A stretch of 36,401 nucleotides of DNA from NCBI GenBank assembly GCA_015486215.1, contig WFSA01000271.1, positions 1 through 36,401 on the forward strand. The letters run 5' to 3'. This document shows, piece by piece, positions 1-34,840 of this stretch; position 1 is the stretch's first letter; each line of letters begins with the position of its first letter. This stretch comes from Anaerolineae bacterium (GTDB taxonomy: Bacteria; Chloroflexota; Anaerolineae; Promineifilales; Promineifilaceae). Below the pieces are notes generated by a model. It was given only the letters and a program-made list of their open reading frames with translations. It searched no databases and had not been told where the DNA came from. A program made the translations under genes and the position numbers.

Positions 1-2538
1 ACCCCGCAGCCCGCCTTCGTTGGCCGCCAGCACGAACTCGCACGGCTGACAAACGCGCTCATCAACGCGAACAACGGGCATGGCAGTTTCCATCTCATTC
101 GCGGCGAATCGGGCGTGGGCAAAAGCAGGCTCATCGCTGAAGCATTACGCAAAAACGACACGCAGCCCATCCCCGCCAAAGAGCTATACCTTTTTCACGG
201 GCGCGGCCACGAATTTGAGGTGATGATTCCGTACAGCTTGATCACGCAAGCGTTGCAAATGGGTGCGCCCGCCATCACATGGGAGCAATTCACCCCCGCC
301 CCCGTATGGTTGAACGGGTTGTTGCCGCTGCTACCCCATCTGCCCGCCTATTTGCACGATGCAGGGATGACGATGCCGCCGTCAGAAAAAAGCTGCCACA
401 CCATCGAAGCGGCAGGTCGCCTATTCCTGACACTCAGCCGCCGCCGCTTGGTCGTTCTTTATCTCGACAATCTGCATTGGGCAGATATGCCGACATGGAA
501 TTTATTGGGCTATTTGGCACAGCGCGTCAACAATCACCGCATCTTGATTATTGGAGCCGCGCGGGTTGAAGATATGTCGCATGAACGCAATCGGTTGGCA
601 CGCAAGATGAAACGGCAACACGCTTTAGAGCAGTTGACGCTGGAACGGTTGAATCGGGAGGAAACGGCCGAACTCGCCCGTCATCTCATCCCCCCTGCCC
701 AACAGCCCGACCCGCTTTTTTTGCGCCGTCTGTATGAAGAGACGGCTGGCAACCCGTTTTTCATCGTGGAGACGGTGCGAGCGGTGCTGGATGATGGGGA
801 ATCGGACAATTGGACGCGCAATGTGCCCACAGATCGGGAAGGAAAACGGCCGTTTTTCGCCATCCCGCTTAAAGTGCAAGCGGTCATCGAATCCCGTCTC
901 GACAAATTAGAAGAAGAGAGCCGCGCCACCCTCGCCGCCGCCGCCGCCATCGGTCACGAATTCACCTTCGACCTCTTGCAGACGATCAGCCGTTACGACA
1001 CCGAGACGGTCTTAGCCGCCCTTGATGAATGGTTGGCACGCGGTCTTGTGCGTGAACAAAAAGAGAGCTATCGCTTCAGTCACGACAAGATCGAACAAGT
1101 CGCCTACGAACATCTCAGCCGCGCCCGCAGACAGTGGACACATCTGCAAATCGCCCATTATCTCGACAGCCATTATCCCGACACCGACCCCGCCCAACTC
1201 GCCCATCATTACTATCGCAGCAGCGATCCCGCCCGCGCTTTGCCCCATCTTGCCCGCGCGGGCGACCGTGCCTTGCACGTCCGCTCCTACGCCGAAGCGC
1301 GTGAATTTGGCTTGCAAGCGATTGGCCTCATGGGGCGTTTCCCCGCGCTGGCAAAGCATGACCGCGCCGAACGAATCGATCTCAATCTGCAATTGGCGCA
1401 AGCGTACGCCTTCACTGGCGACCGCGACAAAGCGTCACGCTTGCTATACGAAACAGAGCGCGTGGCAGAATCCCTGAACGATACGGAGCGGCTGGCGCAT
1501 ATTTTTTACCGTTCAGCCCAACTGTTTTGGCTGCAAGGAGACCCGCAAACGGCCGATGATTACGCCCGCCGCACCCTTCGCCGCGCCGAAGAGTTGGATG
1601 ATGCCAAACTCCGCTTTGCCGCCTTACGGATGTTGGGGCGATGCGGTATCGCTCTGAGCAGTTATGATGATGCCATCGCCTATTTATTGCGTTACATTGA
1701 CATAGGCAAACGGAAAAAACTAGCCGATCTGCCCGCTATTTACGGCTATTTGGCGGTCGCTTATGCGCGTGTTGGCTCGTGGCAGCGTGCGCTTGAGGCT
1801 GCCAAAACAGGGGTAGAGAATGCTGGCGATTTTGCTAATGGGGCGATGGCTGTCGTCTCCTTGATGCAGATGGCATTTGTATATGGAGAATTATACGAGT
1901 GGGGAAATGTGTTGGAAACGGCCGTTCCCATTCAAGACGATTGGCGCGAAGAGGGGATGAGTCCACACACGATGATGTTACGCGCCGTCGTCGGGCGGGC
2001 GATGGCGTACTCTGGACAGGCAAAGATGGGGATCGCTGAAATTCAAGCCGCGCTGGCATGGGCGGATGAGGTCGGATACAAGGTGTTAAACCATGTGGTG
2101 CGCGGCTATTTGGCAGAGGCGTATTATCAGATTGGACAGTATAAAAAAGGGGCGGAGGCGGCGGCAACGGCCGTTACACAAGCGCAGAAAACGGGAGATC
2201 GATGGGCAGAAGGGGTCAGTCTGCGCGTGCAAGCAATCTGCGAAATGCGCCTAGATCAGCCCGATTGGCTACATATCGAAACCCGCCTCCTCACCGCGAT
2301 GCGCCTCCTCCGCGATGTCCGTGCCCGTCCCGATCTTGCCCGCACCTATTTGACCTCGCGCCGCCTCTATGACCGTGCCGGGCAGACGGCGTGGGCGGTC
2401 GACTGCCATTTCCGCGCCATCACTATTTTTGAAGAGTTGGGCATGGCGGCCGAACGGCGTGCCGCGCAGGGACAGCCAAAAGGGACGAAGGGGAGCGGCG
2501 GCGTAATTTTAGGGTTGGCGTTGACAGGGCCTGTTTGA
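1..2538 (+). CDS. AAA/STAND ATPase with TPR-like C-terminal region, 5' truncated by window edge
   Basis: The reading frame is open from the first base, so the gene starts outside the window; 845 residues are visible. Numbering from the window edge, a sensor-ATPase start (FVGRQHEL, residues 6-13) leads to a Walker A motif GESGVGKS at about 35-42 and a Walker B-like LYLDNLHWAD at about 153-162. The rest, from about residue 380, is Ala/Leu/Tyr/Arg-rich helical sequence in TPR-like repeats. Family knowledge: this order is typical of large signal-transduction ATPases (MalT/AfsR/adenylate-cyclase-linked), whose N-terminus often carries a BTAD, kinase or cyclase domain. That part is not visible, so the output is unknown. 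The GTG at 115 lies inside the P-loop and is not a start. The end is followed by a nested repeat element. Confidence 0.85.
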   Translation, partial: TPQPAFVGRQHELARLTNALINANNGHGSFHLIRGESGVGKSRLIAEALRKNDTQPIPAKELYLFHGRGHEFEVMIPYSLITQALQMGAPAITWEQFTPAPVWLNGLLPLLPHLPAYLHDAGMTMPPSEKSCHTIEAAGRLFLTLSRRRLVVLYLDNLHWADMPTWNLLGYLAQRVNNHRILIIGAARVEDMSHERNRLARKMKRQHALEQLTLERLNREETAELARHLIPPAQQPDPLFLRRLYEETAGNPFFIVETVRAVLDDGESDNWTRNVPTDREGKRPFFAIPLKVQAVIESRLDKLEEESRATLAAAAAIGHEFTFDLLQTISRYDTETVLAALDEWLARGLVREQKESYRFSHDKIEQVAYEHLSRARRQWTHLQIAHYLDSHYPDTDPAQLAHHYYRSSDPARALPHLARAGDRALHVRSYAEAREFGLQAIGLMGRFPALAKHDRAERIDLNLQLAQAYAFTGDRDKASRLLYETERVAESLNDTERLAHIFYRSAQLFWLQGDPQTADDYARRTLRRAEELDDAKLRFAALRMLGRCGIALSSYDDAIAYLLRYIDIGKRKKLADLPAIYGYLAVAYARVGSWQRALEAAKTGVENAGDFANGAMAVVSLMQMAFVYGELYEWGNVLETAVPIQDDWREEGMSPHTMMLRAVVGRAMAYSGQAKMGIAEIQAALAWADEVGYKVLNHVVRGYLAEAYYQIGQYKKGAEAAATAVTQAQKTGDRWAEGVSLRVQAICEMRLDQPDWLHIETRLLTAMRLLRDVRARPDLARTYLTSRRLYDRAGQTAWAVDCHFRAITIFEELGMAAERRAAQGQPKGTKGSGGVILGLALTGPV

Positions 2539-2560
2539 TTTTATGACATGGTTCAAAAAA

Positions 2561-2737
2561 GGGTAACTACTCAGCCATTGTCCAAATTAACCACAAAGAG
2601 TAAGACTTGACAAATTTTCCTAATGGCACTCGTGTAAAATAAAGTGCTGATGAAATTTGTCAAGTCTTGTCCACGATTTATTGAGAAGATACTTTGCTTC
2701 TTTGTGGTGAAACAATTGATAGGCTGAGTAGTTACCC
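2561..2737 (-). mobile_element. MITE-2 copy 1, interrupted by a MITE-1 segment
   Basis: Terminal inverted repeats GGGTAACTACTCAGCC and GGCTGAGTAGTTACCC bound the element. Its outer halves match, in opposite orientation, the intact copy at 31999-32118, including the shared CCACAAAG and TTTGCTTCTTTGTG segments. The centre has been replaced by a MITE-1 fragment at 2602-2692. No direct repeat is visible at the flanks. It has no coding capacity and lies between the convergent ATPase and glycosyltransferase genes. Confidence 0.8.
2602..2692 (+). mobile_element. MITE-1 copy A, left end missing, nested in MITE-2
   Basis: The segment matches the inner left arm (GACTTGACAAATTTTCC), the core (CGTGTAAAATAAAGTGCTGATG) only in part quoted here as CGTGTAAAATAAAG, and the complete right end (TTGAGAAGATAC) of the 112-bp family. 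The outer left end GTATCTTCTCAGTATTC is absent. Confidence 0.8.
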
Positions 2738-2744
2738 TGATTCT

Positions 2745-3863
2745 TTACTTACGATACAGGGATAACGTAGCACGGGCGGTTTTTTGCCAGTTGAAGGTTT
2801 GGGCTTGCAAACGGCCGTTTATCACCATCTCCTCCCTCATTTTTGAATCACTCAGCACCCGTTCCATCGTTTCCGCCCATAAATCGACATCATCGGGATC
2901 AAGCTGGAGGCTGTTCTGCCCTACAATTTCGGGCAGCGAGCCGCGATTGCTGACGATGACAGGGCAATCGCTGTGCATCGCTTCCAACGCGGGCAGACCA
3001 AATCCCTCATAATGGGACGGGGTGACAAGTACGCCCGCCGCGTGATAGAGATGTGCCAGCGCATCATCAAAAATGCCCGTGAGATGATGAACGTGGGAAC
3101 GCAGCTTCAGCTCATCCATCGTGGCAAAAATATCCTCATACATCCATCCTTTGCCGCCGACAAGGACAAGGGGGACGGTGACGGCCGTTTCCATTCGCAA
3201 TTTTTGATACGCCCGCAGCAACATCGGAATATTTTTACGCGGCTCCAACGTGCCGACGCAAAGGATAAAGCCGCGCGGTAAATGATGGGCGGCCAATGTC
3301 TGCTCAACCACATCAGCCGCATACTCGCGCTGATAAAGCGGGTTGGCGGCCAAATAAACGGTGCTGACTTTTTCGGGCGGCAAGTTTAGATGGTTGATGA
3401 GGTCTCGGCGCGTCGCTTCGCTGTCGGCGGAGATGTGGTCGGCGTGGTCAACAGCCCATTGGATTTGATCAGCGTAATACCGCCTGCTTTCGGCGGTCAA
3501 GAATTGGGGGTAATAGATAAAATTGAGATCGTGAACGGTGATAATATGCCGTCGCCCGCCCCGTTGCGGTGGAATAAAATCGGGGCTGTGGAATACGTCC
3601 AGCCGATGGCGGAGCAGTTCGGCACTTAACGCCCATCGCTCTATTTTATGATGAGCGGGAGTGTATAAATTGCGTCGCTGAAAGCTGCCTTCGATACACG
3701 GGGAGGATGGGATGTAGGAACGGCCGTCTTTCCAACTATGAAAAATAGTGTACCGATTCTCATCATCCAGCGCGGCAAGGGCGGGCAGAAGATGCAGCAC
3801 ATATTGGCTGATACCACCCATCTGATAATAAGGAAGTCGTGCGTCTATGCCGATGTGCATCAT
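2745..3863 (-). CDS. Family 4 glycosyltransferase (GT-B fold)
   Basis: The 372-residue protein begins MMHIGIDARL, the usual first beta strand of GT4 enzymes, followed by a glycine-rich GGISQYV at about 16-22. The second Rossmann half starts with VGTLEPRKN near residue 200. The nucleotide-sugar EX7E signature EGFGLPALE lies near 285-293. GT4 enzymes are retaining transferases that build polysaccharide, glycolipid or cell-wall glycans from activated sugars at the inner membrane face. The exact donor and acceptor cannot be read from sequence. The start could be either of two adjacent ATGs (3863 or 3860); no good ribosome binding site distinguishes them. It stands alone on its strand and is bounded by repeat elements on both sides, so no operon partner is visible. 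Confidence 0.9.
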   Translation of the reverse strand: MMHIGIDARLPYYQMGGISQYVLHLLPALAALDDENRYTIFHSWKDGRSYIPSSPCIEGSFQRRNLYTPAHHKIERWALSAELLRHRLDVFHSPDFIPPQRGGRRHIITVHDLNFIYYPQFLTAESRRYYADQIQWAVDHADHISADSEATRRDLINHLNLPPEKVSTVYLAANPLYQREYAADVVEQTLAAHHLPRGFILCVGTLEPRKNIPMLLRAYQKLRMETAVTVPLVLVGGKGWMYEDIFATMDELKLRSHVHHLTGIFDDALAHLYHAAGVLVTPSHYEGFGLPALEAMHSDCPVIVSNRGSLPEIVGQNSLQLDPDDVDLWAETMERVLSDSKMREEMVINGRLQAQTFNWQKTARATLSLYRK

Positions 3864-3954: not shown

Positions 3955-4140
3955 AGGGCGATTGCAACCTCGCCTTAACTCGTGATCGTGATCGTTTTCG
4001 TGATCGAAAATCGAAAAAATCGATCATGAAAACGATCACGAAATACGATCACGACAATCGTAACGCATAAATTCCCCTCAATTTGCATATTATGTCAATT
4101 GCAGGGTTGCTAAAAACAGTATAAATTTAGAATTTCAAAA
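3955..4140 (+). mobile_element. MITE-3 copy 1, right end missing
   Basis: Starts with the family end AGGGCGATTGCAACCTCGCC and continues through a core rich in CGTGATCG and its complement (about 3980-4058). It matches the reverse complement of the complete copy at 13914-14113 up to the segment ending TTTAGAATTTC. It then runs straight into a truncated MITE-1 at 4141, so the distal inverted repeat has been lost. The stretch 3864-3954 between the glycosyltransferase start and this element holds one ACGGCCGT site and nothing else recognisable. Confidence 0.8.
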
Positions 4141-4224
4141 CTTGACAAATTTCATCAGCACTTTATTTTACACGAGTATCATTAGGAAAATTTATCAAGT
4201 CTCCCCAGAATACTGAGAAGATAC
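4141..4224 (-). mobile_element. MITE-1 copy B, right end missing
   Basis: On the minus strand it reads GTATCTTCTCAGTATTCTGG and on through the 112-bp family to GTCAAG, where it abuts the broken MITE-3. The plus strand carries TTGACA near 4142, reading towards the coiled-coil gene. From 4225 to 4379 nothing is recognised except the likely ribosome binding site for 4380. Confidence 0.8.
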
Positions 4225-4379
4225 ATCATTTCGCATAAAATGAACCATGCCTAAAATTGAGAAAATACAACAAAGATAAAAAAACAGGTGTAACCAATCC
4301 ATGTCCCCGTCCCCCCCCGCTCGCCCGCCGTTCATGCGCGGGTTATAATGTTGCCATCATACCGAAACAGGAGAGTACA

Positions 4380-5621
4380 ATGGCAGCGACAAAATCAGAG
4401 ATGGAAGAACTTCGGCGACGATTGGATTGGTTCGACGAAGAGCGACGCAGAACCAATCGAAAACTCACGGAACTGGAACAAAAATTAACCTTGCAACAGC
4501 AAGAGGTCACTAAACGAGAACGACGTATTCGTGACTTGGAACAACAGCTATCGACTACGACATCACAACTCAGCCGTTTTTCTCAAATAGATACCCAAAT
4601 CGCCCAATTCAAGGACGAAACAATCCGCATGATGGAGCAATATGATCAACGGCGCATCACTTCTGAGAAAGAGGTTGACCGTATGCGCCGTGTGGAGCAG
4701 GAAGGGGCAGCCCGCGAATTGGCTGACATCCGTAAAGAACTGCCCGCAATCGGCCGTTTGCAACAAAACATGGAGTTACGCATCTCCGAAGAATCGCGGC
4801 TGGCTAGTTTGCTCGGCAATCAACAAAATAGAATCGCCTCTCTCGTCAACCAAATCGACAATTGGGAGCGTGCCATCACCTTTGTGGAAGAGAAGGAAAA
4901 TCGGAACACCCAATATATCAACGAAATACAGTCAGCCCAACTGGATGTGGATAAAAAGTGGAATCCGATCAATGCACGGCTAGATAATCTGTCGGGTAGT
5001 ATTTTGCGATTGGAAACGGCCAATCGGGAAATCTACGAGGCACAAGAGGTAATACGCACAAGCACGCAGCGATGGATGGAGCAGATTCAAATTGGGGAGT
5101 ACGGCCGTAATCAAAAGGTAGAAACGTGGCGGCAAGTCATTGAAGAGCAACAAGACATCATCGCTAATTTTAAGCGTGAATGGATCAAATTTAACGACCA
5201 ATATAAAGAGTCGAAGATGGCAGTGCAGACGATGCTCGGTTGGCAAGAGCAGGTCGAACAGAAGCAAAAAGAGTCATCCGAAACATTGCGCGTGGAGTCA
5301 AGCCGCACACAGAAACAGTGGGATTCATTCCAAACGGAGATTAAAAAACAGTTACGTACCTTCACAACTGACGTTGAGCAACGATGGGTGCATTATGACC
5401 GCAACACCAAGCAGACGCGAGAACGGTTTGAACTGCTTGATGGACAATTGAAAAAACTATCCGACGAGAAAGATACGCTGGATCGTATCCAAAACGCACA
5501 AGCGGACGCGATAAAACGATGGGGGCGCATTTGGATGGAAGAGGTTGAAAAGGCGATAGCCAACGATCCAAACCGCCGCCGCCAGCCCGCGCTCGTTTCG
5601 GTGCAGGACGATACGCTATAG
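4380..5621 (+). CDS. Long coiled-coil protein of unknown function
   Basis: A 413-residue protein that is almost entirely charged, Glu/Gln/Arg/Lys-rich heptad sequence with no glycine-rich or catalytic motif, no signal peptide and no membrane segment. Start chosen at 4380 because AGGAGAG sits just upstream; the frame is open further up but that part is Pro/Arg-rich and non-protein-like. Helical sections such as ELEQKLTLQQQEVTKRERR (about 25-44) and the final third suggest an elongated dimer or filament-like scaffold. The C-terminal tail (NRRRQPALVSV) is basic. It shares a general coiled-coil style, but no clear sequence identity, with the gene at 34888. It lies 78 bp upstream of selB, separated by an inverted repeat. 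No family could be assigned. Confidence 0.8.
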   Translation: MAATKSEMEELRRRLDWFDEERRRTNRKLTELEQKLTLQQQEVTKRERRIRDLEQQLSTTTSQLSRFSQIDTQIAQFKDETIRMMEQYDQRRITSEKEVDRMRRVEQEGAARELADIRKELPAIGRLQQNMELRISEESRLASLLGNQQNRIASLVNQIDNWERAITFVEEKENRNTQYINEIQSAQLDVDKKWNPINARLDNLSGSILRLETANREIYEAQEVIRTSTQRWMEQIQIGEYGRNQKVETWRQVIEEQQDIIANFKREWIKFNDQYKESKMAVQTMLGWQEQVEQKQKESSETLRVESSRTQKQWDSFQTEIKKQLRTFTTDVEQRWVHYDRNTKQTRERFELLDGQLKKLSDEKDTLDRIQNAQADAIKRWGRIWMEEVEKAIANDPNRRRQPALVSVQDDTL

Positions 5622-12194: not shown

Positions 12195-13472
12195 CTATCG
12201 CATATCCCGCGTCAATGTTTCCAAGAACTCGTAATTATTGCGCGTGTCCCGCATCCGTTTCATCACTGCGCTTGTCGCACTGCCCAAATCATAGCCGGGC
12301 GTGTCCATCAAATGCGCCAACATTTGCCGCATAATGTACACCCGCGAAAGTTCATCTCCAGAAAGGAGCAAATCTTCGCGCCGCGTGCTTGATTTTTCAA
12401 TATCATAAGCGGGGAAGATGCGCCGTTCTTGTAAGCGGCGGCTCAGGACAAGTTCCATATTACCCGTCCCCTTGAACTCTTCATAGATGACATCATCCAT
12501 ACGGCTGCCTGTATCGACCAAACAGGTACCGATAATCGTCATACTGCCGCCAAATTCAAGATTACGCGCCGCGCCAAAGAATCGTTTGGGCGGATACAAC
12601 GCTGTTGGATCTAAACCGCCGGATAATGTACGGCCGCTTGGCGGCACAATCAAATTATACGCACGTGCCAGTCGGGTGATGGAGTCGAGCAATATGACCA
12701 CATCCTGCCCCGCTTCGACTAGACGTTTGGCACGTGCCAAAGCCATCTCTGCCACGCGGCAATGTTGGCGCACAGGCTCATCAAATGTAGAACTGACCAC
12801 TTCGCCGCGAATGGAACGCTGCATATCGGTGACTTCTTCCGGCCGTTCACCAATCAACACCACCATCAGATGAATATCGTTATAATTTTCGGCAATGCCG
12901 TTAGCGATATTTTTCAACACCGTCGTTTTACCCGCTTTTGGCGGTGAAACGATGAGACCGCGCTGTCCCCGCCCGATCGGGGCGACAAGATCGATCATGC
13001 GCGTGGCGATGATGTTCGGCAATGTCTCTAAGACTAGCTTTTCATCGGGAAAGATGGGAGTCAGGCTGCCATAATCATCTCGTTTTTTCAACAAATCTGG
13101 ATGATCGCCATTGACCGTTTCAACACGGATCAAACTGTAATACTTTTCTTTGTCTTTAGGCAGGCGCACCTGCCCCATAACCATATCACCAGTACGTAAA
13201 TTCATCCGTCGAATCTGCGAACTGGAGACGTAAATATCATCGTCACCGGGCAAATAATTATCGGAGCGTAAGAAACCCATAGATTGTTTATCTGATTCTA
13301 TGATCTCTAACACGCCGCCGCGATAATCGTATCCTTGTTTTTTTGCTTCGGCACGCATGATGCCAATCACTAAATCTGGTTTTCTAGCGGTACTAAAACC
13401 AGAAATTTCTAACTCGCGTGCAATGCCACGAAGTTCGCTGAGTTTTTTTGACTCAAGTTCTCGAATATCCAT
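12195..13472 (-). CDS. rho: Transcription termination factor Rho
   Basis: The 425-residue hexameric RNA helicase shows a Rho N-terminal helical domain (LRGIARELEISG), a cold-shock-type RNA-binding domain (MGFLRSDNYLPGDDDIYVS), Walker A SPPKAGKTT (about 174-182), Walker B VVILLDSITRLARAYN and the late LSRRLQERRIFPAYDI segment. It terminates transcripts by moving along nascent RNA. Start chosen at 13472 because GGAG lies 9 nt upstream; the ATG at 13505 has no such site and would add 11 residues. No large N-terminal insertion is present, unlike Rho of many Actinobacteria. It is preceded by a leader of nearly 390 nt from the candidate promoter at 13866-13894. Confidence 0.97.
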   Translation of the reverse strand: MDIRELESKKLSELRGIARELEISGFSTARKPDLVIGIMRAEAKKQGYDYRGGVLEIIESDKQSMGFLRSDNYLPGDDDIYVSSSQIRRMNLRTGDMVMGQVRLPKDKEKYYSLIRVETVNGDHPDLLKKRDDYGSLTPIFPDEKLVLETLPNIIATRMIDLVAPIGRGQRGLIVSPPKAGKTTVLKNIANGIAENYNDIHLMVVLIGERPEEVTDMQRSIRGEVVSSTFDEPVRQHCRVAEMALARAKRLVEAGQDVVILLDSITRLARAYNLIVPPSGRTLSGGLDPTALYPPKRFFGAARNLEFGGSMTIIGTCLVDTGSRMDDVIYEEFKGTGNMELVLSRRLQERRIFPAYDIEKSSTRREDLLLSGDELSRVYIMRQMLAHLMDTPGYDLGSATSAVMKRMRDTRNNYEFLETLTRDMR

Positions 13473-13865
13473 AGAGAAATTCTCCAAAATAGAAGGGGGT
13501 TGCATTATAAGGAATGAAAATTAAATTAAATCCAAAACTGAATTATAAAATCTCCGTTCTTAGTTGTTCATCTTCCCCATACGCCATGTATCGAATTCGT
13601 AAATAAGCAGTATCGGGCAACCGTGTCGGGCAGCCACGCTACTTAAAAAAATTGATGCGAATAGTGCGCTCAATATCTAATTTTATAGGGAGGTTGAATT
13701 TGTATATCAATAGGGGGCGGATGTCATTTTTAGGGTGAAAATCAAGGCGAATCCCACAACGCCACCCTCCGCATGGTGACATTTGTTTGTTTGTTTTTAT
13801 TATTCAAAAAAATATAAAGGGTGTAAAAAAGTGCTATCGTATGGATGTTACCAGCAGACGAGCAA

Positions 13866-14288: not shown

Positions 14289-14400
14289 GTATCTTCTCAG
14301 TATTCTGGGGAGACTTGACAAATTTTCCTAATGATACTCGTGTAAAATAAAGTGCTGATGAAATTTGTCAACTCTTGTCCACGATTTATTGAGAAGATAC
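14289..14400 (+). mobile_element. MITE-1 copy C, complete, 112 bp
   Basis: Ends GTATCTTCTCA and TGAGAAGATAC are exact; the inner arms around TTGACAAATTT continue the inverted repeat to roughly 36 bp with mismatches. Flanks (AATTCATC left, TAAATAAG right) do not form a target duplication. It lies downstream of the lipoprotein gene stop. The sequence 14114-14288 is unassigned. Confidence 0.9.
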
Positions 14401-25415: not shown

Positions 25416-25527
25416 GTATCTTCTCAATAAATCGCGGACAAGAGTTGACAAATTTCATCAGCACTTTATTTTACACGAGTATCATTAGGAAAATTTGCCA
25501 AGTCTCCCCAGAATACTGAGAAGATAC
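25416..25527 (-). mobile_element. MITE-1 copy F, complete, with 8-bp target duplication
   Basis: 112 bp in reverse orientation. Exact GTAAAGAT direct repeats at 25408-25415 and 25528-25535 mark a clean insertion. It lies between the mutase terminator and secA; its TTGACA-N16-TATTTT pair reads towards secA. Confidence 0.95.
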
Positions 25528-25535
25528 GTAAAGAT

Positions 25536-25738
25536 AGATAGAGTGTAGAGATAAAGATAGAGATCATATTCGTAAACTTAACGAATATATTTGACTGTCA
25601 TTCCTGCCTTCGCAGAGCCTGCCCTCATGAAGATGGGGGAATGACAAATCGTTAAGTTTACGATAATGAGATAGAGATAGAGATAGAGTGTAGAGATAGA
25701 GATAGAGATAGAGTGTAGAGATAGAGATAGAGATAGGG
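25536..25738 (+). repeat. Purine-rich GAGATA/GTGTAGAGATAGAG array, split by a family-4 repeat
   Basis: Repeated 6-bp units GAGATA with periodic GTGTAGA interruptions at 25540-25567 and 25668-25738. The element 25569-25664 interrupts it. A complementary pyrimidine tract lies at 25797-25836, so the leader can form a long hairpin. Confidence 0.8.
25569..25664. mobile_element. Family-4 inverted-repeat element, copy 1
   Basis: Ends TTCGTAAACTTAACGAA and CGTTAAGTTTACGAT with inner GACTGTCATTCCTGCC and GGGAATGAC arms. A second, shortened copy is at 33580-33638. Too short to encode anything. Confidence 0.75.
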
Positions 25739-25796
25739 TACAAATATTCGATTGGAAGAGAGCGTGCAAAATAGTTTTCTCCCCAATCGTATCCCC

Positions 25797-31978: not shown

Positions 31979-31998
31979 GGCCATTTATGAAAAATAAT

Positions 31999-32118
31999 GT
32001 AACTACTCAGCCTATCAGTTATTTCATCACAAAGAAGCAAAGATCACAAAGAAAATCTTAAAAAACGTCGTGTTCTTCGTGCCTTTGTGGTTAATTTAGA
32101 CAATGGCTGAGTAGTTAC
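31999..32118 (+). mobile_element. MITE-2 copy 2, complete, with 8-bp target duplication
   Basis: 120 bp with ends GTAACTACTCAGCC and GGCTGAGTAGTTAC. Exact AAAATAAT direct repeats at 31991-31998 and 32119-32126. Inner sequence is A/T-rich with CTTTGTGG-type words. No coding potential. Confidence 0.93.
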
Positions 32119-32128
32119 AAAATAATTA

Positions 32129-32356: not shown

Positions 32357-32468
32357 GTATCTTCTCAGTATTCTGGGGAGACTTGACAAATTTTCCTAAT
32401 GATATTCGTGTAAAATAAAGTGCTGATGAAATTTGTCAACTCTTGTCCACGATTTATTGAGAAGATAC
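32357..32468 (+). mobile_element. MITE-1 copy G, complete, with 8-bp target duplication
   Basis: 112 bp; exact ATGAATTA direct repeats at 32349-32356 and 32469-32476. It differs from copy C by GATATTCG in place of GATACTCG. It lies 69 bp upstream of the adenosine deaminase start. Confidence 0.95.
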
Positions 32469-32537: not shown

Positions 32538-33572
32538 GTGAAACAAGCTAATAAAGTGACAAGATCGGCGTTGCAGGCAATGCCCAAAATAGATTTGCAC
32601 CGCCATCTGGAAGGCTCATTGCGGCTGGAAACTTTACTTGAAATCGCCACTGAGTATAAATTAGGGTATCCACATCGTACGGTTGAAGAGTTACGGGCAT
32701 TTGTTCAAATCATTAATGACCGTCCCGAACATGAGGTATTTCTTGGCAAATTCAGCGTACTCCGTCATTTTTACCGCAGCCCTGAAATTATTCGCCGTGT
32801 GGCTTATGAAGCTGTCGCCGATGCGGCCGCCGATAATGTACAATACCTTGAGTTGCGGTTCAGTCCACAAGCATTATCCCGTATTGCCAATTTTGATCTG
32901 GAGAAGGTGACGGATTGGGTTATTTTTGCGACTGAAACAGCAGCCAAAGATTTTAACATCGAGGTCAATCTCATCATCACCTTATTGCGGCACGAATCAG
33001 TTGAGTTAGCCACACGTGTAGCTGAAATCGCGTATGCGCGTGCAGACAAAGGCATCGTCGGGCTTGATTTGGCTGGTGATGAAGTGATGTTCCCCCCTGC
33101 CCCTTTCATTCCCCTCTTCAAAAAAGCGAAAGAAGTGGGTTTAGGCGTATCCATCCATGCTGGTGAATGGACAGATGCCGGCCGAGTTGATGAAGCGATG
33201 GAGCAGCTATGCGCTGAACGTATCGGACATGGTGTGCGTGTCAGTGAAAGTAGAGAAATTGCTTCAAAAGCGATTGAAAAGGGCATCACTTTTGAAGTGT
33301 GTTTAACTAGCAATTTGCATACAGGTGTAGTGCAGCATCTGAGCCAGCATCCATTAAAACGGATGCTTGATTTTGGTTTGCTGGTGACATTAAATACGGA
33401 TGATCCCGGTGTCAGCAATATCTCTTTGACCGATGAATACATCATCGCTGTTGAACAGTTGGGGCTGGGGTATGATGATTTGCGGATGATGACGTTGAAT
33501 GCGGCTAAAGTAGCTTTTTTGCCTGAAAACGGCCGTTCTCGTCTCGTCTCCCATTTTGAAAATATATTGTAG
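32538..33572 (+). CDS. add: Adenosine deaminase (metal-dependent hydrolase family)
   Basis: 344 residues. It converts adenosine or deoxyadenosine to inosine in purine salvage; some family members take adenine or other bases. Zinc ligands and catalytic residues appear intact: DLHRHLEGS (about 19-27) for the two early His ligands, GLDLAGDE (about 175), the SIHAGEW His-Glu pair (about 211-217), GHGVR (about 233) and the TDDPG Asp pair (about 291). Start is GTG 32538 with AAGG 8 nt upstream; ATG 32580 (MPKIDLH) is a shorter alternative. The gene sits alone between repeats. Confidence 0.93.
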   Translation: MKQANKVTRSALQAMPKIDLHRHLEGSLRLETLLEIATEYKLGYPHRTVEELRAFVQIINDRPEHEVFLGKFSVLRHFYRSPEIIRRVAYEAVADAAADNVQYLELRFSPQALSRIANFDLEKVTDWVIFATETAAKDFNIEVNLIITLLRHESVELATRVAEIAYARADKGIVGLDLAGDEVMFPPAPFIPLFKKAKEVGLGVSIHAGEWTDAGRVDEAMEQLCAERIGHGVRVSESREIASKAIEKGITFEVCLTSNLHTGVVQHLSQHPLKRMLDFGLLVTLNTDDPGVSNISLTDEYIIAVEQLGLGYDDLRMMTLNAAKVAFLPENGRSRLVSHFENIL

Positions 33573-33579
33573 CAACATA

Positions 33580-33638
33580 TTCGTAAACTTAACGAATATA
33601 TTTGACTGTCATTCCTGCCTTCACAGAGCCTTCGCAGA
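33580..33638 (+). mobile_element. Family-4 inverted-repeat element, copy 2, truncated
   Basis: Matches 25569 onwards (TTCGTAAACTTAACGAA, GACTGTCATTCCTGCCTTC) for about 45 bp with small changes, then is cut off by MITE-1 copy H. It begins 8 bp after the adenosine deaminase stop. Confidence 0.8.
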
Positions 33639-33729
33639 GACAAGACTTGACAAATTTCATCAGCACTTTATTTTACACGAATATCATTAGGAAAGTTTGT
33701 CAAGTCTCCCCAGAATACTGAGAAGATAC
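33639..33729 (-). mobile_element. MITE-1 copy H, right end missing, next to prfB
   Basis: 91 bp in reverse orientation. It retains the outer left end (CTGAGAAGATAC on the plus strand) but lacks the other end, starting at GACAAGACTTGAC against the family-4 remnant. Confidence 0.9.
33647..33674 (+). promoter_or_regulatory. Candidate MITE-borne promoter for prfB
   Basis: TTGACA (33647-33652), 16 nt, TATTTT (33669-33674), all inside MITE-1 copy H. It would start transcripts about 67 nt upstream of the prfB ATG. Only 18 bp separate the element from that ATG, so the natural promoter must be in the element or further upstream. Confidence 0.4.
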
Positions 33730-33747
33730 CAAATACGGATATACAAC

Positions 33748-34840
33748 ATGAGTGACTTAATTAAAACCTTAGACCAATTAGCCGAAACGATCAACGAGCT
33801 TCGGAGGCGGCTTTGACGTAGCCAATAAGGTAGACAGCATCGCCCAATTGGAGCAGTTAGCCGCCGCTCCCGGCTTTTGGGATGACACCAGTAAAGCGCA
33901 AAACTCCATGCGCGAACTGACCGCATTGCGTGACGATGTGACTATATGGCAAGATGTCAGCAGCCGCCTGACGGATGCACAAGAGTTAGCCACATGGGAA
34001 GATGAGGAATTTGAAGCTGAGTTGACCCGTGATGTAAAGATATTGTCGAAAATGGTCGCCCAATTGGAATTTCGGGCGATGTTTGCTGACCGCTATGATA
34101 ACGAAAACGCGATTTTAGCCATTCATGCGGGGGCGGGCGGCACGGAGGCGCAAGATTGGGCGCAGATGTTGCAGCGCATGTTCGTGCGCTGGGCTAATCG
34201 GCATGGGTTTACCGTCAGTATTGTGGATGAGAGTCCGGGAGATTCAGCGGGGATCAAGAGTTGTTTGATTGAGCTTGAGGGGGAGTATGTTTACGGCCGT
34301 CTCAAATCAGAGCGCGGCGTGCATCGGCTGGTACGCATTTCGCCTTATGATTCGTCCAGCCGCCGCCACACTTCATTTGCAAAGGTGGAGGTGTGGCCGA
34401 ATATCCAAGAAGATATTAAGATCGAAATCGATCCCAATGATTTACGAGTGGATCGTTTCCGTGCCAGCGGTGCGGGCGGGCAGCATGTGCAAAAGAACGA
34501 AACGGCCGTTCGTCTAACCCATTACCCTTCTGGCTGTGTCGTTTCTTGCCAAAATCAACGCTCATTGACCCAAAATATGGACACGGCAATGAAAATTTTG
34601 AAAGCGCAGCTGTTCGACATAGAACGGCGCAAACAGGATGCGGCTATCGCTGATTTGAAAGGGGAAGATGTGGATGCGGGCTGGGGCAGTCAAATTCGCT
34701 CCTATGTGCTACATCCGTATAAAATGGTGAAAGATCATCGCACAAAGGCGGAATCGGGAAATCCAACGGCCGTTCTTGATGGCGATTTAGATAAATTTAT
34801 GGAAGCATATTTAACACAAAATGTAACAGACAATAAGTAA
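33748..34840 (+). CDS. prfB: Peptide chain release factor 2 with programmed +1 frameshift
   Basis: RF2 recognises UAA and UGA and frees the finished protein. The ATG frame runs 22 codons to an in-frame TGA at 33814-33816; skipping one base after CTT (33811-33813) joins it to the frame that runs to 34840, giving about 363 residues, the normal RF2 length. The site has the standard parts: internal Shine-Dalgarno-like CGGAGG (33802-33807), slippery CTT and TGAC. The catalytic GGQ is in SGAGGQHVQ (nucleotides about 34474-34494). The stop-codon anticodon tripeptide is SPY in place of the usual SPF. WGSQIRSYV and the late AVLDGDLD motif are conserved. RF2 level autoregulates by this mechanism. Confidence 0.96.

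Follow-up and report, generated by a model that had tools for sequence, protein, structure and literature searches.

In the genome analysed here (4.13 Mb in 341 contigs; contig C271, 36,401 nucleotides long, is called the window), a truncated copy of a 112-bp repeat, MITE1, lies immediately upstream of the release factor gene prfB and carries a candidate promoter facing it. Judging from the sequence, we give about even credence to an accidental co-option of the MITE1 promoter at prfB after a rearrangement, by which some or all of the prfB mRNA would start in the element.

Gene order and the spacer upstream of prfB

In 44 of the 45 family genomes having both genes on one contig, prfB immediately follows ftsY in the same orientation. 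The 45th genome, G049, has them 2.2 kb apart, and a named locus with a gap of 2,160 bp and two genes between ftsY and prfB probably belongs to it. Same-strand adjacency was seen in 26 of 30 compared loci, a set which includes the present genome; the two genes are each at a contig end in G010 and are split between two contigs in G050. The present genome has its own ftsY on contig C168, where it is followed by a MITE1 remnant and intact copies and then by an unrelated gene on the opposite strand, so that prfB has, as assembled, lost its ancestral upstream neighbor, with both sides of the break embedded in repeats. The adjacency of ftsY and prfB does not prove their co-transcription. The neighbor now upstream of prfB is add, which was found adjoining prfB in no relative examined by tblastn of add against the prfB loci of the relatives.

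Lined up downstream of ftsY in this genome (L204, reverse complement 2530-3089) are the remnant of a palindromic repeat, a MITE core truncated on both sides and lying between direct repeats of 18 bp (TTTTTTCACGAATTGTAA), an intact MITE and a diverged MITE. In G010 (contig C145, 1-126; L199) prfB is preceded, at a distance of 23 bp, by another kind of hairpin repeat (GTAGCTAT...ATAGTTAC), located at the contig end; this is a second MITE-like element, perhaps of independent origin, at nearly the same place.

The spacer between add and prfB is 177 bp long (33573-33749), and positions 33576-33729 of it are derived from two truncated repeats fused to each other, leaving as non-repeat bases only three after add and twenty before prfB (Table 1). 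The first-pass annotation had reported a TTGACA-N16-TATTTT pair facing prfB inside a truncated MITE, which was confirmed. It had also placed the end of the MITE 18 bp before the prfB ATG; the closeness holds and the figure is to be corrected to 20 bp. Because the copy is truncated, its target duplication is unreadable. The pair ends 75 bp before the ATG and so faces prfB at a workable distance, with a predicted transcript start near 33681. The prfB gene is genuine: besides its PCRF and RF-1 domains it contains a programmed +1 frameshift at CTTTGAC (33813-33819), with the RF2 frameshift site CGGAGGCGGCTTTGAC. Its ribosome-binding pairing energy is -3.3, compared with medians of -6.4 in the relatives and -2.9 in this genome; the idea that the insertion had spoiled the ribosome-binding site was dismissed, as the value is weak against the relatives and ordinary for this genome. 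Another dispersed repeat, with the ends GTAACTACTCAGCC / GGCTGAGTAGTTAC, was observed in the window at 31998-32119 (before add) and 2563-2735, and elsewhere in the genome.

Table 1. Features of the window discussed in the text
Feature	Position	Strand	Remarks
MITE1 copy, left-truncated, facing the coiled-coil gene at 4380	4137-4224	+	pair 4142-4169
MITE1 copy, full	14289-14400	-	pair faces minus-strand gene 12195-13505, about 840 bp away
MITE1 copy, full, facing secA	25416-25527	+	pair 25445-25472
Second repeat, full copy between MITE1 and secA	25565-25669	+	
MITE1 copy, full, upstream of add	32357-32468	-	points away from add
add (adenosine deaminase), present upstream neighbor of prfB	32538-33572	+	Pfam A_deaminase
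Second hairpin repeat remnant, right side cut off, fused to truncated MITE1	33576-33636	+	98% identity over 56 bp to copy 25565-25669 before secA
MITE1 copy before prfB	33637-33729	+	nhmmer model positions 20-112; first 19 of 112 (left outer inverted repeat) missing
TTGACA-N16-TATTTT, candidate sigma-70 promoter	33647-33674	+	TTGACA 33647-33652, TATTTT 33669-33674; PWM score 11.1
Non-repeat DNA, MITE1 end to prfB ATG	33730-33749	+	20 bp
prfB (release factor 2)	33750-34840	+	ATG 33750; Pfam PCRF and RF-1

MITE1 and its copies

An nhmmer profile made from the intact copy upstream of secA found 296 non-overlapping copies of MITE1 in 1.42 of the 4.13 Mb, 231 of them with the full length of 112 bp. 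In the 0.95 Mb of this sample chosen independently of copy content the density was 187 per Mb, corresponding to about 770 copies per genome. The consensus, GTATCTTCTCAATAAATCGTGGACAAGACTTGACAAATTTCATCAGCACTTTATTTTACACGAGTATCATTAGGAAAATTTGTCAAGTCTCCCCAGAATACTGAGAAGATAC, has the ends GTATCTTCTCA...TGAGAAGATAC and long inner arms. Its two halves are largely complementary, with TTGACA in both arms, and the element is therefore a hairpin, of which the TTGACA of the candidate promoter is, by this consensus, an arm. A perfect 8-bp direct repeat flanks 127 of 207 full copies, compared with 0.8 in shuffled controls, and this target duplication identifies MITE1 as a true MITE. Judged by these features, MITE1 is a non-autonomous hairpin transposable element of 112 bp that has reached several hundred copies. 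Neither a transposase between matching ends nor an autonomous partner was found in the sample of 1.42 Mb, roughly one third of the genome. A phage origin and a structured RNA family were also considered and set aside, as the core had no exact match in viral contigs and the window had no Rfam match. At L155:11295-11665 lies an element of 371 bp whose ends resemble those of a MITE and which has a perfect duplication of 8 bp; nested in it are one entire MITE1 and a portion of another repeat.

The 1.42 Mb contains 201 exact TTGACA-N16-TATTTT pairs, all 201 inside the MITE1 family and none elsewhere, so the pair does not arise by chance. The same pair had been noted in front of secA and of a coiled-coil gene, and it is indeed present at both places, where it is again the top-scoring promoter-like site. 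For the coiled-coil gene there is, besides, an exact TATAAT at 4344-4349, about 30 bp before its ATG and nearer to the start than the MITE1 pair, with a poor -35 sequence. A further copy in the window faces, at a distance, a putative rho-like gene on the minus strand. Runs of GATAGAGATAGAG were observed between the MITEs and secA, at 25540-25740.

The presumed promoter function of the pair was assessed across the copies in the 1.42 Mb. With genes called by a simple codon-usage script and not a standard gene finder, MITE1 copies in tandem spacers showed no preference for facing the gene (73 facing and 81 opposing, p=0.57), and within 150 bp of gene starts 66 copies face the gene and 61 do not. 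The exact pair is retained no better in facing copies: 72% of the copies that face a gene start no more than 200 bp away have it, as do 72% of the non-facing copies (p=1.0). Native promoters behind facing copies showed no decay, with scores as good as behind opposing copies (p=0.88). Insertion biased to the 5' sides of genes was rejected, since copies in tandem, divergent and convergent spacers (154:58:28) follow the lengths of these spacers (122.7:48.5:22.4 kb). Selection for the pair inside the element was likewise rejected: conservation is 97% at the -35, 94.5% at the -10, 93% in the spacer and 96.5% in the right arm, the hexamers thus being no more conserved than the rest, and related elements have CGTCTT (G010) or TGTTTT (G012) at the -10 position, with TTGACA kept in both. 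Since there is neither orientation bias nor better retention nor native decay, and the -10 is not conserved, the pair is best read as a chance property of the subfamily amplified in this lineage, a passenger of the element and not a selected function. The lack of orientation bias, better retention and native decay also leaves without genome-wide support the wider suggestion that secA and the coiled-coil gene are driven by the pair as part of a general pattern.

Transcription of prfB

The quality of the pair as a promoter was scored with E. coli-type weights. These were judged usable in this genome since the best sites upstream of 20 of its tRNA genes show a clear TTGACA-N17-TATAAT pattern, with scores of 3.5-13.9. 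The score of the prfB pair, 11.1, lies within this range, and the pair ranks first among the sigma-70-like sites of the plus strand between 25,473 and prfB. Between 25375 and 33749 only two plus-strand sites reach at least 11, namely this pair and the one before secA. Sites of at least 11 occur outside MITEs at 0.06 per kb per strand and are found in 5.9% of MITE-free upstream regions of 177 bp (2.3% after shuffling). By a local scan alone the pair is unremarkable, with one site found and 0.7 expected; its TATTTT matches TATAAT at four of six positions and its spacer is 16 instead of 17. The leader beginning at the predicted start is unstructured (z +1.15).

With the linkage to ftsY lost and the spacer made of repeats, the MITE1 pair is left as the best candidate at prfB. 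In the mechanism we propose, a rearrangement with both ends inside repeat clusters would have parted prfB from ftsY and put it behind add, so that two truncated repeats, fused to each other, make up nearly all of the spacer. MITE1 would happen to hold a sigma-70-type promoter, with the predicted -35 in the hairpin arm and the -10 in the loop, and transcription from about 33681 with a leader of about 70 nt would account for some or all of the prfB mRNA. We infer the use of the pair by RNA polymerase, the need of prfB for it, and recombination between repeats as the cause of the rearrangement. The first-pass annotation had proposed that prfB is transcribed from the MITE and depends on it. The former is the best reading of the sequence, given the lost ftsY linkage, the repeat spacer and the only good sigma-70-like site; dependence does not follow, as prfB could also be co-transcribed with add.

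Such co-transcription is the main alternative, somewhat less probable in our estimation but a serious one: prfB would be transcribed by read-through from add or from further upstream, with MITE1 as a passenger in the leader and its pair unused. The two genes share a strand, no terminator was found in the 177 bp between them, and the pair is neutral genome-wide. The MITE arms would form a strong hairpin in a read-through transcript of the spacer, which folds far better than shuffled sequences (-39.1 versus -26.4 kcal/mol, z -3.75). This hairpin may affect processing or stability of the mRNA, by analogy with RNase III, which is reported to cleave transcripts containing Correia elements (review PMC10969869). 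However, the best plus-strand sites score only 7.5 upstream of add and 8.0 inside it, compared with 11.1 for the MITE1 pair, add and prfB are not an ancestral unit, and the MITE1 copy upstream of add points away from that gene.

Left-truncated copies may be a special case. Outside the window, they face gene starts in a ratio of 17:5, compared with 104:92 for full copies (Fisher p=0.04); this hypothesis was formed post hoc on a small sample, and p varies from 0.04 to 0.10 with the definition and cut-off. Their left ends are concentrated in the outer arm between element positions 5 and 25, just ahead of the -35 (position 30), with 26 copies there against 13 with mirrored right ends (p=0.05). The boldest reading would be that the essential prfB, cut from the family-conserved ftsY-prfB order by a repeat rearrangement, was rescued by the promoter of a broken repeat, and that truncation makes the MITE a fixed promoter unit whose retention is favored where it faces a gene; taken as a whole, this we consider unlikely. 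Quite unlikely, too, is the explanation that left-truncated, immobile copies as a class are kept as promoters, having lost the outer inverted repeat with the promoter spared, and face gene starts because they are used. Both the facing ratio and the concentration of left ends speak for it, but deletions sparing the 5' side of the gene would give an equal bias without any use of the promoter, and the right ends of truncated copies also gather, less strongly, in the mirrored outer arm, which points to a mechanical cause. Finally, the separation of prfB from ftsY could be an assembly error at the repeats, with prfB still behind ftsY and a MITE inserted between them, which is conceivable with so many contigs and about 770 repeats, the flanks of both genes crossing repeats and exact shared stretches of up to 74 bp on the ftsY side, but is very unlikely, as the junction on the prfB side has no exact match longer than 48 bp elsewhere in the third of the genome that was sampled, so that a misjoin would need a short overlap, and the fused sequence GAGCCTTCGCAGAGACAAGACTTGAC occurs only once there.

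Comparison with known elements

The Correia elements (CREE/NEMIS) of Neisseria are about 104-156 bp long and have a TA target duplication. Like MITE1, they are short, high-copy MITEs of spacers with an internal sigma-70-like sequence and with arms that form hairpins in transcripts. The sequence of MITE1 is different, and its length of 112 bp, its ends (GTATCTTCTCA) and its 8-bp duplication set it apart; since these ends and this duplication are unlike the Correia ends and TA, an assignment of MITE1 to the Correia elements was rejected. MITE1 further differs in having one inward-reading pair, with the -10 in the loop, in that its full copies are not enriched facing genes, and in that its promoter is a prediction from the sequence. 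MITE promoters which drive neighboring genes are already known: the sigma-70-like promoter in a Correia element can transcribe the adjacent chromosomal uvrB gene (Black et al. 1995 and Siddique et al. 2011, as cited in PMC10969869). Sigma-70-like sequences have also been described in the bacterial elements MITEAba12, BrickBuilt, QMITE1 and SonMITE_1 (PMC10969869), which share with MITE1 the promoter-like hexamers inside the MITE; their hosts are unrelated, and in the present case the hexamers are joined with the lost ancestral linkage of an essential gene. The REP/GTAG repeats, palindromes of 20-40 bp reported in Chloroflexi too (PMC3733652), are likewise high-copy and intergenic, whereas MITE1 is 112 bp long, has extended inverted repeats and duplicates 8 bp of its target.

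More generally, a promoter-like pair carried by all copies of a repeat is no proof that the repeat serves as a promoter: in MITE1 the hairpin imposes the -35, and the -10 belongs only to the amplified subfamily of one lineage. If the co-option of the MITE1 promoter at prfB is confirmed, it would be a clear case at the sequence level of an essential gene which lost its ancestral transcription context and was re-equipped by a mobile repeat, and a lineage with hundreds of copies would make such events frequent.
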